Notes under the pieces: generated by a model | Database searches by the model: none | What the model was told of the DNA's origin: nothing | The model's input: only the letters and a program-made list of their open reading frames with translations | Program-made: the position numbers and the translations under genes | Origin: Erysipelotrichaceae bacterium | GTDB taxonomy: Bacteria; Bacillota_I; Bacilli_A; Erysipelotrichales; Erysipelotrichaceae | DNA length: 64,000 nt | Direction of reading: 5' to 3' | Assembly (NCBI GenBank): GCA_017454765.1 | Contig: JAFTCJ010000021.1 | Location: 124,001 to 188,000 of the forward strand | Shown here: piece by piece, positions 57,847-63,057 of the stretch | Position numbering within the stretch: position 1 is the stretch's first letter | Layout: each line of letters begins with the position of its first letter

Positions 57847-58311
57847 ATGGAAGAGAAGTTTTATGTAACCGAAGAGGGTCTGAACGACCTTAAAAAAGAG
57901 CTTGAAACTCTGATACATGTCACAAGAGAGGAAGTCATTGAGGAACTCAAGGCTGCCAGAGCGCAGGGCGACCTTTCCGAAAATGCCGATTACGATGCTG
58001 CCAGAGACCATCAGGCCAAGGTAGAATCCCGTATCAAGGAACTGGAACATCAGATCAAGAATGCTGAGATCATCGCCGAATCAAGAAAAACAAATTTCGT
58101 ACGTATCGGTTCGACTGTCGAGATTCAGGAACTGGATACAAAGCATAAAATCACATACAAGATCGTCGGTTCGGTTGAAGCCGATCCGCTCAACGGTCTG
58201 CTGTCAAACGTGACACCGCTGGCCGAAGCGATCCTTGACCACAAGGTGAATGATGTCGTAACGGTCAAGGTTGATATGCCTTACGATGTCAAAATTTTAA
58301 AAATAAATTAG
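57847..58311 (+). CDS. greA: Transcription elongation factor GreA
   Basis: A 154-residue factor that rescues backtracked RNA polymerase. The N-terminal coiled coil carries the acidic tip in QGDLSENADYDAARDHQ, and the C-terminal FKBP-like domain includes RIGSTVEIQE and SNVTPLAEAIL. Its stop codon (TAG) overlaps the -35 element of the downstream sigma-H-like promoter. Confidence 0.97.
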   Translation: MEEKFYVTEEGLNDLKKELETLIHVTREEVIEELKAARAQGDLSENADYDAARDHQAKVESRIKELEHQIKNAEIIAESRKTNFVRIGSTVEIQELDTKHKITYKIVGSVEADPLNGLLSNVTPLAEAILDHKVNDVVTVKVDMPYDVKILKIN

Positions 58312-58336
58312 GATTTTGAAGAATTTCAGCGAATAA
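58308..58336 (+). promoter_or_regulatory. Sigma-H/ComX-type promoter P1
   Basis: TTAGGATTT (58308-58316), an 11-nt spacer and AGCGAATAA (58328-58336). The known sigma-H consensus is RNAGGAWWW and RNNGAATWW with about this spacing; only the first base differs. A near-identical element lies 664 bases downstream (P2). The start would be at about 58343, inside the greA terminator loop. Confidence 0.7.
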
Positions 58337-58360
58337 TGAGTAGGAGACTACTCATTTTTT
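58335..58360 (+). terminator. greA terminator overlapping promoter P1
   Basis: Stem AATGAGTAG (58335-58343) with CTACTCATT (58348-58356), loop GAGA, then TTTT. The last T abuts the next ATG. Its 5' arm overlaps the P1 -10, so transcripts starting at P1 would lack this arm. Confidence 0.9.
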
Positions 58361-58975
58361 ATGAAAAAACTGTTATTTTTCTTATCTTTCATCATTCTGA
58401 CCGATCTTTTTTCTTTTATTTATCTGAAACAGCTGATGGATAAAAGAACGGCCTTTTCTTTTGAATCCCACACAAAACCCCTGATCTATCAGAAAAGAGA
58501 TATCGTACTCAAGGATGTTGATGATTTTGTATTTGAAGATTATTTTTCTGTCCTTTCCGCTGGCAGCATCACTATCTCATATAAAACAGACGGGGATCAG
58601 ATAAAGGTTTTCATGGATGAAGAAGAATACGAATTTCCTTACGAAATTATCCCTCCGGAAGTCATAACTGTTGAAAAAATCGTATACAAAGAAAAAGAAG
58701 TCATCAAGGAAACAGTCACAGAAGGGAACAGAAACGAAAACGGAACTGTTTCATATGAGACAGAGGCCGATTACTTCTATCTGAAGAATCAATCACTGAG
58801 CTTTGAAAAGGGGACGGATATTTCTGTTATCATCCGTGAGATCACTGATTCCGTCGATACCAATCAGGATGTTTCTGTCGATTATTCACAGCTCAATCCG
58901 AATCAGACAGGCACTTATCAGGTGTTTTTCATGACAAAATCACAGAAATACGATATTTTTGTAAATATTTTTTAG
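58361..58975 (+). CDS. Secreted/anchored protein with Ig-like domain, competence-linked by promoter
   Basis: A 204-residue protein with an N-terminal membrane helix or uncleaved signal (KKLLFFLSFIILTDLFSFIY), a beta-rich middle, a charged linker (EKIVYKEKEVIKETVTEG) and a C-terminal Ig-like fold (DVSVDYSQLNPNQTGTYQVF) like those of DUF5011/Cry22-type domains. The only ribosome site is GGAGA (58343-58347), which sits in the loop of the greA terminator and is free only in transcripts starting at P1. The gene seems to be under sigma-H-like control. Precise role unknown; a surface or periplasmic-space partner in DNA uptake is possible. Confidence 0.75.
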   Translation: MKKLLFFLSFIILTDLFSFIYLKQLMDKRTAFSFESHTKPLIYQKRDIVLKDVDDFVFEDYFSVLSAGSITISYKTDGDQIKVFMDEEEYEFPYEIIPPEVITVEKIVYKEKEVIKETVTEGNRNENGTVSYETEADYFYLKNQSLSFEKGTDISVIIREITDSVDTNQDVSVDYSQLNPNQTGTYQVFFMTKSQKYDIFVNIF

Positions 58976-59000
58976 GATTTTGGCATTTTCCGGCGAATAA
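58972..59000 (+). promoter_or_regulatory. Sigma-H/ComX-type promoter P2
   Basis: TTAGGATTT (58972-58980), 11-nt spacer, GGCGAATAA (58992-59000). It overlaps the stop codon of the preceding gene, as P1 does. The predicted start near 59007 leaves a short leader with GGAGG before the ATG at 59020. Confidence 0.7.
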
Positions 59001-59019: not shown

Positions 59020-60822
59020 ATGAAACGAATACTGAAATATCTTATTGTTTTATTGCTTATCTGTTCTTCCTTCCGGAATACCTATGCCCAGGAATGTGAG
59101 GACATGTCAAAATGGTCTTTCAAGATCCTCTTGCAGAATGCTGACCAGATGGATGAACTGAAGATCGTCCGTTACAGAAACAAAGAAAGCGGCAGATACG
59201 GTTTCTGCATGGAACCGGAAGTCGATTTTTCTCCCAGAGACAATGAATACTTCAGGAACGACTGGTTCAATGAAGAAATATACGACATATTCAGAGCATT
59301 CGAAGAACTAGGTGAGGATTATTATATCGCAGCTCAGCTGATGATATGGGAGTACAATACCGGAATCAGATATTCATTTGACGGCAAAGATGCATCGGAT
59401 TACGGAGAAGATGAAATCAAAGGAAAGATCGCATCTTTTGCAGAAGAAGAGATGACTGTATCAGAATACGAAAGTGGAGCTGAGATCGGAAAGATCACTT
59501 CAATTCATATCGAACATCTGGATGAACTCGATATCGTGCACAGTGATGTAAAAATACTGGATTTTAATGAAGATACGATCAGATTTATTCTCGAAGAAGA
59601 TACAGAAAACGAACTTTCCATCGATCTGAAAGCAAAACACGATGAAACATACGGTTCCGTTCTGTATCATTCCGAGAGTTCACAGGATCTTTATTCCTAT
59701 GAAGGGGATTATCAGACAGTCAATCCGGTTCATGTCAGGATCAATGCAGAAAAAGGTGTTTTCACGCTGAATTTCTCAAAAACAGATTTATCAGGCAATC
59801 CTGTTGCAGGTGCACAGTTCACTGTCTATGAGATCACAGATAAAGGAGATGAGCAAATCTGCATCATAGCTGCCGAAAAAGACATCGATCTCAGGCAGAT
59901 CACAGAAAACTATGAATCTGTGAAAGAAATATCTGTTTCGGAAAGATATGATAAATATCTTGACGGTTATTTGATTCGCGCTGAAGAACCAGGCTATTTT
60001 GACTGTCAGATCATGACGGAAGATTCTTCTTTCATTCAAAGAGTATATGTATGTAGCGATATATCATTAAGCGAAGGAATGCTGAAAAGATATCGTGTCA
60101 GAAAGATCAGTGACTGCATTTCCGGTTCTGATCAGGTCAATACGATCAATCATCTTGAATCAGGAAAGAAATATCTTTTATGTGAAAGCAAGCCGAAAAA
60201 CGGATATTCCTTTGTTTCCGATCCCTGTGTATTGGCAGATGAAGAAACAGCTGCTGATCATATCTTTTCTTTTGTGAATCGGATCAGAAACTATGATTTC
60301 ATACTGTATAAGGAGAATCCGGATCATGATATCCTGCTCAACGGAGCCCATTTTACTGTCCGATATAAAGAAAGCGGAATTGAAAAAGAAAAAAGATTCG
60401 TGACCGGTGCACTGAATATCATACAGGAGAATGATCATCAATTTGTTCTGTACCGACATGAAAATGACGGCAATATCTATGTCGGAGAATTCACTGACGG
60501 AACATTCATCAAAGAAGATGCAGTACCAGGAAAATACCATATTCTGCAGACAGATGAAATAAATGTAAACGATAGTTCATTATTAGAAGATACAGTTGAA
60601 GTAATTCCGGGAGCTTTTCAGATCAGTGATATTCCTTATGATTCCATCATATCGGTAACGGAGACAGAAGCACCGAAAGGCTATTACATCGAAGAAGCGC
60701 AGTTCACGATCGATTCGGATATCGATTATTCTCTTATCGTATCAAAAAACTATCGTGTCAACTCATTTGAGATCATCCCCGGACATAAGCGCAGAATCCC
60801 AAAGACATGTATCGGCGACTGA
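59020..60822 (+). CDS. Thioester-domain/Cna-B surface protein in the comE operon
   Basis: A 600-residue exported protein. A signal peptide (MKRILKYLIVLLLICSS, cleavage near TYA-QE) is followed by a thioester (TQXA-like) domain with Cys63 in YGFCMEP and Gln106 in AAQLMIWEY, the pair expected to form the internal thioester used for covalent adhesion. Two Cna-B/SpaA-type domains follow (about residues 248-424, SKTDLSGNPVAGAQFTVYE; and 425-580, YKENPDHDILLNGAHF with ETEAPKGYYIEE), which often carry isopeptide bonds. The C-terminus reads RRIPKTCIGD and stops: it looks like a sortase signal (IPKTG) with Gly changed to Cys and no membrane anchor. It overlaps comEA by 16 bases and is probably co-transcribed from P2. 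Confidence 0.85.
   Translation: MKRILKYLIVLLLICSSFRNTYAQECEDMSKWSFKILLQNADQMDELKIVRYRNKESGRYGFCMEPEVDFSPRDNEYFRNDWFNEEIYDIFRAFEELGEDYYIAAQLMIWEYNTGIRYSFDGKDASDYGEDEIKGKIASFAEEEMTVSEYESGAEIGKITSIHIEHLDELDIVHSDVKILDFNEDTIRFILEEDTENELSIDLKAKHDETYGSVLYHSESSQDLYSYEGDYQTVNPVHVRINAEKGVFTLNFSKTDLSGNPVAGAQFTVYEITDKGDEQICIIAAEKDIDLRQITENYESVKEISVSERYDKYLDGYLIRAEEPGYFDCQIMTEDSSFIQRVYVCSDISLSEGMLKRYRVRKISDCISGSDQVNTINHLESGKKYLLCESKPKNGYSFVSDPCVLADEETAADHIFSFVNRIRNYDFILYKENPDHDILLNGAHFTVRYKESGIEKEKRFVTGALNIIQENDHQFVLYRHENDGNIYVGEFTDGTFIKEDAVPGKYHILQTDEINVNDSSLLEDTVEVIPGAFQISDIPYDSIISVTETEAPKGYYIEEAQFTIDSDIDYSLIVSKNYRVNSFEIIPGHKRRIPKTCIGD
60798..60804 (+). other. Possible -1 frameshift heptamer C_CCA_AAG
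   Basis: In the frame of the surface protein the codons are atC CCA AAG, an X_XXY_YYZ slippery heptamer. Slipping by -1 enters the comEA frame three bases before its ATG (60807). A weak downstream hairpin (ATC/GAT) is the only visible stimulator. Confidence 0.3.
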
Positions 60823-61277
60823 TCGTTCTTGTTTTTCTATCGTTGTTTCTTTTCTGGCAGTCTTTTTCTGTAGAGAGTATTCCGGCTGAAGAAAACAGAC
60901 GGATTTCTGTCGAAATCAGAGGAGAGATCAAAAACCCCGGTGTTTATGAACTGCGGCTGGGTACGACTTATGAAGATCTGTTTGCTCAGGCTGTCCTGAC
61001 CGATCAGGCCGATATCAGTTCTTTTTCTCTGAATACTCTTCTATATAACAGTCAGCTGATCAATGTTCCTGAGAAAAACAGCAGGAGACTGATCTCCATC
61101 AACTCAGCAAGTGCAGAAGAACTGATACTTTTACCCGGAATCGGTGAAACGATCGCTGAACGTATCATTCAGTATCGGAGAGAAAAGGGGAGTTTTCTTG
61201 CACTGGAAGATATCATGAATGTCAAAGGCATCGGCTATGCGAAATTTTTTCAGATCAGAGAATATATCACTCTTTAG
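60807..61277 (+). CDS. comEA: Competence DNA receptor ComEA
   Basis: A 156-residue membrane-anchored double-stranded DNA receptor for transformation. An N-terminal helix (RLIVLVFLSLFLFWQSF) anchors it, an SLBB-like domain follows (ISVEIRGEIKNPGVYELRLG, ~residues 33-90), then a double helix-hairpin-helix (INSASAEELILLPGIGETIA, MNVKGIGYAKFFQI). No Shine-Dalgarno sequence precedes the ATG, so it depends on translation of the overlapping surface-protein gene. comEC follows with an overlap; comEB is absent, as in many genomes. Confidence 0.93.
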   Translation: MYRRLIVLVFLSLFLFWQSFSVESIPAEENRRISVEIRGEIKNPGVYELRLGTTYEDLFAQAVLTDQADISSFSLNTLLYNSQLINVPEKNSRRLISINSASAEELILLPGIGETIAERIIQYRREKGSFLALEDIMNVKGIGYAKFFQIREYITL

Positions 61278-63057
61278 AATTGCTCTGTTTCTTAGTCTTT
61301 CGTATTATTTCCGTAACATATGGGTTTTGATTCTATCTGTCTTATATTTCTTTCTGCTGAACAGAAAAGAATGTATGGTTTTTATTCTGCTGTCGACTAT
61401 GATCATTCTTTCCGACAATCATCGGTATGATATTATTCCGATCGGAATTGTTGAAAAGAAAGATTCTTCCTGTGTGACGGTCGACAAATTCTTTTATAAA
61501 GTCAGACTGTTCACAGATGATGAACCCGATTACGGAGATATACTTCTGTTTTATGAAAAATGTGACAGGACGGATACACAGTCACTCATCAGAAAGAATA
61601 TACTGTTCAGCAAAGAAGCTGCTTTCAGAAAAATCGCCGATCTGAAGATCAGAAAAATCATCCGGAACAGGATCGGTTCACTGGACAGTGAAACAGGCAG
61701 TTTTATCACCAGGATCATTTATAACGAGTATACAGACAGCGAAAATATGGTACAGCTGGGATACGGACTTTTTGCGTATTATTGTTTCAGCAGATTACGT
61801 AAAAGATCTGTCCCGGTCTGTCTGATCACGCTGTTTCTGTATTCACTGTGTTTCTGTTTTGAAAACAAATTCTTTCTGATCTTCATTGACTGTATCTGCG
61901 ATCTGATCAAGGCACGGAAGGATACGAAAACAGCTTTGCGGATACTTCTGTTTCTCTTTCTCAATCCGTTGCTTCTGACGAATAAGGGGATACTGATACC
62001 GATCCTTCTGGATCTGTATTCCTTATTTGATTTTGATCTTTGTTTCCATACTTTTCTGGTACTGGTATTTTCTTTCTGTTTTCATGAGATCAGTCTACTG
62101 AATATCTTATTTTATGAAATCTGTATCAGATACAGGATATTTCTTTTTCTGTTTTCTGTGCTGATACTGCTTTTTCCTTTTCTGGGACCCTTGTTCCGCA
62201 GATTCACCGATCTGTTTTCCTTTCTGTTTGTCAGAAACATACATCTCAGAGTCTCTGTTTCAGCGTTCTCTCTTCTTATATTCCTTCTGATCAGGAAAAG
62301 AATACAGATCAGAAAAACTTATATCGAAATGTTCTTGATGATCATCCTGCTGGCTCTGCCTTTTAAAGATCTGTTTTTTCAGGTCACTTTCATCGATGTG
62401 GGGCAGGGCGATGCGATCATGATACACTATCCGTTTTCTTTTACCTGCGTGCTGATCGATACCGGTTCCTCCTATCAGTATCAGAAACTGAAAAACGAAT
62501 TATACAGTCATCATATCTACCGCATCAGTGATCTGATCATTACACATGATGATGAAGATCATAACGGAAATCTGGAAAAACTGAAAGAAGATTTCATTAT
62601 AGAAAGGATTATCGATGAAGGCTGTGATTTTGATTACCGGAACATCACTTTGAAATATCTGAAATTGGGTGTCCATGACAATGACAACGATAATTCACTG
62701 GTGTATTCGCTGAATGTGAACGGTATTGATTTCCTGTTTACTGGAGATATCTCCAAAGATGCGGAATGTGATCTCATCAGGATGTACGGACCTTTGGATA
62801 TCGATGTGCTTAAAGTATCGCATCACGGGTCCAGAAGCGGCAGCAGCCGGTTTTTCATTTCATCAATCCTGCCTGAGATCGCTGTGATTTCAACATCAGG
62901 CAACTACAATCATCCTCATCAGGAAGTGCTTGATATACTGAACTCCTATAATGTCAGGATACTCAGCACAAAGCAGTCAGGTTCCGTTTCCGTTTTCATC
63001 ACGCGCTTCTTCTCATTTGTGAAAACCGCTCATAACGAATTTGTTATAATGGGATAG
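61219..63057 (+). CDS. comEC: Competence DNA channel ComEC
   Basis: A compact 612-residue ComEC/Rec2 protein (Bacillus ~776) forming the channel for single-stranded DNA. A short N-terminal membrane part and OB-like segment (DSSCVTVDKFFYKVRLF) precede a helix-rich competence domain (~residues 150-380). The C-terminal metallo-beta-lactamase-like nuclease has FIDVGQGDAIMI, THDDEDHNGN (HxDxDH metal site), LFTGDISKDAE and KVSHHGSRSGSS. The start is uncertain: ATG 61219 (GGAAGA upstream) or ATG 61237. The gene overlaps comEA by up to 59 bases. Confidence 0.93.
   Translation: MSKASAMRNFFRSENISLFRIALFLSLSYYFRNIWVLILSVLYFFLLNRKECMVFILLSTMIILSDNHRYDIIPIGIVEKKDSSCVTVDKFFYKVRLFTDDEPDYGDILLFYEKCDRTDTQSLIRKNILFSKEAAFRKIADLKIRKIIRNRIGSLDSETGSFITRIIYNEYTDSENMVQLGYGLFAYYCFSRLRKRSVPVCLITLFLYSLCFCFENKFFLIFIDCICDLIKARKDTKTALRILLFLFLNPLLLTNKGILIPILLDLYSLFDFDLCFHTFLVLVFSFCFHEISLLNILFYEICIRYRIFLFLFSVLILLFPFLGPLFRRFTDLFSFLFVRNIHLRVSVSAFSLLIFLLIRKRIQIRKTYIEMFLMIILLALPFKDLFFQVTFIDVGQGDAIMIHYPFSFTCVLIDTGSSYQYQKLKNELYSHHIYRISDLIITHDDEDHNGNLEKLKEDFIIERIIDEGCDFDYRNITLKYLKLGVHDNDNDNSLVYSLNVNGIDFLFTGDISKDAECDLIRMYGPLDIDVLKVSHHGSRSGSSRFFISSILPEIAVISTSGNYNHPHQEVLDILNSYNVRILSTKQSGSVSVFITRFFSFVKTAHNEFVIMG
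63042..63050 (+). promoter_or_regulatory. Extended -10 promoter of holA, leaderless
   Basis: TGTTATAAT (TATAAT 63045-63050) inside the last codons of comEC, 7 nt before the holA ATG. Confidence 0.6.

Follow-up and report, generated by a model that had tools for sequence, protein, structure and literature searches.

A greA terminator-like hairpin overlaps the predicted start of a sigma-H-type promoter at the head of an Erysipelotrichaceae comE locus

Analysis of a 64-kb stretch of an uncultured Erysipelotrichaceae MAG (the window, by which we mean this whole stretch) indicates that the intrinsic terminator of the housekeeping gene greA probably spans the site at which a sigma-H-type competence promoter starts transcription. 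Direct reading of the DNA between greA and the next gene, ORF204, revealed a promoter, P1, and a terminator-like hairpin that overlap within 56 bases (58308-58363), with the 5' arm of the hairpin beginning two bases inside the P1 -10 element. We further propose, tentatively and falling just short of an even call, that a terminator with a start site nested inside it is a selected device, rebuilt with new stems at new positions, that sorts RNA by its origin with no factor acting at the hairpin.

All features of the junction lie on the forward (+) strand. greA (57847-58311; GreA_GreB_N, 3.2e-28; GreA_GreB, 1.9e-20) ends in a TAG stop codon at 58309-58311. The -35 element of P1, TTAGGATTT, spans 58308-58316 and the -10 element, AGCGAATAA, spans 58328-58336; the complete promoter, TTAGGATTT-N11-AGCGAATAA, differs from the sigma-H consensus (-35 RNAGGAWWW, -10 RNNGAATWW; PMC8510167) only in the first base of the -35 element, the -10 element being a full match. 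The hairpin (58335-58360) consists of the arm AATGAGTAG (58335-58343), a GAGA loop (58344-58347), the arm CTACTCATT (58348-58356) and a T-run (58355-58360). A sequence-only reading of this DNA had claimed that the greA terminator begins within the P1 -10 box, and its coordinates proved right. Its claim that the hairpin contains the only ribosome site of the next gene also held: AGGAG (58342-58346), which occupies the upper stem and the loop, is the sole SD-like sequence near the ORF204 ATG at 58361. The SD-ATG gap of 14 nt is long, so that even an open SD may be weak.

ORF204 (58361-58975; 204 codons) encodes a predicted signal-anchored secreted protein and stands first in the comE locus; it has homologues in 19 other genomes, and searches of Pfam and NCBIfam matched it to no family. 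The putatively insulated gene, described by the sequence-only reading as the competence gene, is therefore better described as a signal-anchored, family-less gene that heads the comE locus. A second sigma-H-type promoter, identified by motif match (TTAGGATTT-N11-GGCGAATAA; 58972-59000), has no hairpin and lies 5' of an ORF for a SpaA/Cna-B-like surface protein (59020-60822; SpaA, 3e-12) located between ORF204 and comEA. That this ORF has its own sigma-H-type promoter suggests that a surface protein is co-regulated with DNA uptake. The locus also contains a comEA-like DNA receptor gene (60807-61277; HHH_3 and SLBB; TIGR00426 above cut-off) and a comEC-like DNA channel gene (61219-63057; TIGR00361, 2.3e-33, under cut-off).

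Judged by its sequence, P1 is a sigma-H-like rather than a sigma-70 promoter; we rejected a sigma-70 reading after a sigma-70 scan gave no consensus match there. The 11-nt spacing of P1 falls at the usual sigma-H distance between -35 and -10 elements, which is 11-12 nt. The sigma-H core AGGAWWW-N11/12-RNNGAATWW has exactly two matches on both strands of the 64-kb window, at 58310 and at 58974, the latter immediately 5' of the SpaA-like ORF that precedes comEA and comEC. We located further regulon members in the genome by pattern search. A loose form of the sigma-H pattern gave 14 matches across the whole genome, compared to four for a reversed control, and eight of the 14 form one clear family of sites: those of a ComFA-like helicase gene, dprA, ORF204, the SpaA-comE genes, two Rpn/YhgA-like nuclease ORFs, a BrnT-like ORF, and one further site. 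Together with comGA, which has a slightly different member of the sigma-H type, this brings the genome's set of such promoters, P1 included, to about nine. A scan of genome contigs with a long regulon motif gave no match. The Rpn/YhgA-like nuclease ORFs and the BrnT-toxin-like ORF behind sigma-H-type promoters (L059, L060 and L064, ~1501-1527) are unusual for a competence regulon, and a good sigma-H-type promoter also lies 5' of an ORF with no obvious identity (L057, ~1501-1527; G000:C15:201735-201761, minus strand).

Related genomes carry similar promoters. An AGG[A/T][A/T] -35 core is present in nearly all related loci, and across the genus dprA is preceded by AGGAWT...AATAATGTATTAG-ATG or a similar sequence. 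In 17 of 21 genomes, P1 and the dprA promoter share the same base before AATAA, compared to 5.3 expected from a permutation that ignores relatedness and uses letters transcribed by eye. Such agreement between the two -10 elements within a genome is as expected if one sigma factor reads both. A candidate for this factor is a 192-aa sigma-70 family protein encoded next to rlmB (RlmB: TIGR00186, 238 bits), consistent with the position of sigH in Bacillus, where it adjoins rlmB. The neighbour of the 192-aa factor, which matched no NCBIfam family, we take by eye to be mrnC-like. Against the SigH sporulation equivalog TIGR02859, the 192-aa protein scored 46 bits, far under the cut-off of 294.8, and we therefore call it SigH-like only. 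P1 is presumably read by this SigH-like factor. The sequence-only reading held that the next gene is insulated from greA without any regulator; P1 instead belongs to a sigma-H-type regulon in a genome with a SigH-like factor, and the terminator would add insulation on top.

We estimated the P1 start from other members of the regulon. Among 25 dprA orthologues, transcribed by eye, the ATG lies 5-8 nt after the -10 element, so that transcription would start no more than ~5-7 nt downstream of the -10 element if those ATGs are the true starts. This close spacing, seen in nearly all genomes of the genus (L054, 1501-1560; L099-L127), also suggests that the dprA message probably has little or no leader. 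The AGGAG of ORF204 is in register with the SDs of other regulon genes, standing where GGAGG stands at other sigma-H-type promoters of the genome. Based on the dprA ATGs and the SD register, we predict that P1 transcription starts at about 58341-58343, which are the last bases of the 5' arm. The start was thus correctly placed inside the hairpin by the sequence-only reading, although not strictly in the loop, as that reading had it.

The two RNAs that would cross the junction have very different predicted folds. In read-through RNA the hairpin folds at -10.7 kcal/mol (z -5.1), and no shuffled sequence folds as well; RNA beginning at 58342, 58343 or 58344 reaches only -1.4 to -1.7 kcal/mol (z 0.2 to 0.9). 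These values bear out two expectations of the sequence-only reading: P1 transcripts would lose the 5' arm, or nearly all of it, and in the predicted folds the SD is closed only in read-through RNA. Most relatives give similar values for both RNAs. Exceptions are G013 and G009, in which the short RNA retains a fold of about -4 to -6; values for the short RNAs of G027 and G025 are invalid, because the script took an upstream string as the -10 element.

We propose that polymerase arriving from greA would transcribe both arms, allowing the hairpin to form, and that most polymerases would then stop at the T-run; in residual read-through RNA, the ribosome site would be shut inside the hairpin. Polymerase carrying the SigH-like factor would start at ~58341-58343 and produce RNA without nearly all of the 5' arm, in which the terminator could not form and the ribosome site would be open at the 5' end. 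Where an RNA began would alone decide whether transcription across the junction reaches ORF204 and the comE locus that follows, and these genes would be insulated from greA transcription while competence is off.

The hairpin at 58335-58360 is a stable one followed directly by a T-run, as in an intrinsic terminator, and we consider it a predicted terminator on this basis. Three of its nine pairs are G-C and the T-run has six bases, suggesting that termination may be partial. Of 5000 sequences sampled from a Markov model, one produced a stem of 9 bp or longer with a T-run starting in the same 8-nt register. In an alignment of 23 sequences, three of the nine pairs have changed on both sides, and 98.1% of stem cells are paired, compared to 29-66% when the register is slid; the true register beats every slide. 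AT-rich intergenic DNA does give some promoter-like and hairpin-like matches; the idea that a palindrome and a promoter-like string overlap by chance is nonetheless refuted by the conservation described below, with compensation, regulon membership and the control loci also against it, and we give it essentially no weight.

Whether orthologous loci keep the overlap, a question raised by the sequence-only reading, was clear from relatives: the layout 3' of greA is kept although the spacer diverges, and the overlap of promoter and terminator is conserved. A covariance model run over 272 genomes of the family found the element in the genus and, with altered stems, in two genomes of another genus (G190 and G191). 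The hosts found by a terminator pattern scan are mostly ruminant-gut Erysipelotrichaceae MAGs; one match in Algoriphagus was treated as chance on the basis of taxonomy. We then applied a fixed rule (promoter by regular expression, perfect stem and T-run) to 32 greA-ORF204 or greA-comEA loci from 31 genomes. The rule recognised a promoter at 28 of the 32 loci, and at 27 of these 28 the terminator straddles the predicted start. By elimination, the single miss is G016, whose hairpin has a C-A mismatch in the stem and was rejected by the strict finder for that reason, and the four loci at which no promoter was recognised are those of G004, G018, G171 and G019. By contrast, the same rule found straddling at three of 62 other regulon promoters (1/24 for dprA, 0/16 for comGA and 2/22 for SAF-like genes; Fisher test for 27/28 vs 3/62, 1.6e-18, relatedness ignored). 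Many genomes share one stem by descent, so that genome counts overstate the number of independent events; the genomes are mostly draft MAGs.

In G017, a hairpin at the SAF-like gene that follows gltD encloses the SD and ATG, and a T-run lies in the coding sequence (L203, 1501-1580; G017:C16:13957-14036); at the SAF-like locus of G007 the stem is kept and the T-run is lost. Because G007 lacks the T-run and most other orthologues lack the layout, we did not count the G017 locus as an independent nested terminator. In the dprA start region of G030 (L107), an inverted repeat of 10 bp, ATGAGTAGGA/TCCTACTCAT, covers the start site, with no more than a weak T-run. A genus-wide pattern search for further nested sites returned only greA-ORF204 sequence sites.

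The main alternative, which we regard as doubtful yet well within reach, is that the junction reflects compaction only: the greA terminator and the ORF204 promoter and SD would be overlapped economically in ~50 bp, the stem would reuse the standard discriminator-SD of the regulon as its 5' arm, nesting itself would bring no advantage, and insulation would be what any terminator gives. Consistent with this, the 5' arm, AATGAGTAGGAG, closely resembles the discriminator-SD AATGATTAGGAGG of a SAF-like regulon gene. The terminator may therefore have arisen when a complementary arm and a T-run were inserted between SD and ATG, an origin that would also account for the long SD spacing of 14 nt. Nesting is also not required, since G019 has an ordinary tandem terminator ahead of the promoter; this true exception is among the loci with no recognised promoter, and so falls outside the 27/28 count. 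Moreover, 11 of 16 genomes insulate comGA with a separate terminator 5' of its promoter. In G008, the terminator is a plain one and another gene comes next.

What argues against compaction only is that divergent genomes show nesting again with stems that are unrelated and differently placed, including 15-17-bp stems whose 3' arms fall within codons. In G001, G002 and G014, the 5' arm of an unrelated 11-17-bp stem covers the -35 element, the 3' arm and T-run are inside ORF204 codons, and the loop of 42-51 nt holds the -10 element, the start and the ATG; we had considered these three genomes to be terminator-less, a reading that was rejected when longer sequence revealed the long-loop stems. Compaction does not easily explain stems of this kind enclosing the start. 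Further stem placements in G004, G018 and G171 enclose the likely start by inspection. In a weakly resolved greA tree, the other placements fall mostly on divergent or long branches. The dprA and SAF-like promoters, which are equally compact, are mostly without nesting, although it may simply be that no gene upstream of dprA requires a terminator.

A second alternative is that the hairpin acts mainly as a translational block, with greA and ORF204 on one transcript, little termination, and the fold silencing ORF204 until P1 fires. The moderate stem, the U-tract of six, and the predicted fold of a 75-nt read-through RNA, in which the AUG is paired as well, are consistent with this. Nevertheless, in each placement the stem runs directly into a T-run, even where the 3' arm is inside the ORF and an SD is lacking, and we consider a mainly translational role unlikely. 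Less likely still, and by a wide distance from probable, is an attenuator or RNA switch in ORF204's own transcript, in which the true start would be 5' of the hairpin and a signal would control the hairpin. A hairpin before the ORF start with the SD in its loop is indeed the layout of a translational attenuator. On the other hand, the intergenic region has no sigma-70-like promoter upstream; the sigma-H elements and the bound derived from dprA place the predicted start inside the hairpin, removing the 5' arm; loop and stem position vary across divergent genomes; and an Rfam search of the junction gave no family above threshold, only a sub-threshold snoRNA match.

If the nested-terminator reading is correct, the junction would isolate a tightly controlled gene from its neighbour in little space, with a terminator that stops incoming transcription and is invisible to the promoter inside it. 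It would also suggest a simple genome-wide search for start sites that lie between terminator arms, and a small design for synthetic insulation. It would further point to competence genes being under SigH-type control in uncultured Erysipelotrichaceae of the ruminant gut.

Narrow phrase searches of the literature, chiefly outside subscription journals, returned no paper on a start site nested in a conserved terminator. In the portions available of the published accounts, a SigH-type factor drives the comG and comE operons of Listeria monocytogenes and Staphylococcus aureus (PMC4754846, PMC3486894) and controls com genes together with dprA in Lactobacillus sakei (PMC3364868), and the L. monocytogenes sigma-H promoters lie 22 nt (comEA) and 19 nt (comGA) from the gene (PMC4754846). 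The likeness to our locus is the presence of SigH-type promoters on com genes; those same portions describe no terminator across a start site, and the comE locus analysed here is headed by ORF204 and the SpaA-like ORF. The tandem terminator-promoter of comGA likewise insulates a sigma-H-type promoter, with the terminator wholly before the start and no overlap with start or SD. At the junction between the end of frd and ampC in E. coli, one hairpin is the frd terminator and lies within the ampC control region; as proposed for greA-ORF204, it ends the upstream unit and sits in the control region of the next gene. The ampC hairpin is wholly in the ampC leader, so that ampC's own RNA forms it, whereas at greA-ORF204, given the predicted start, the promoter's own RNA would lack one arm.
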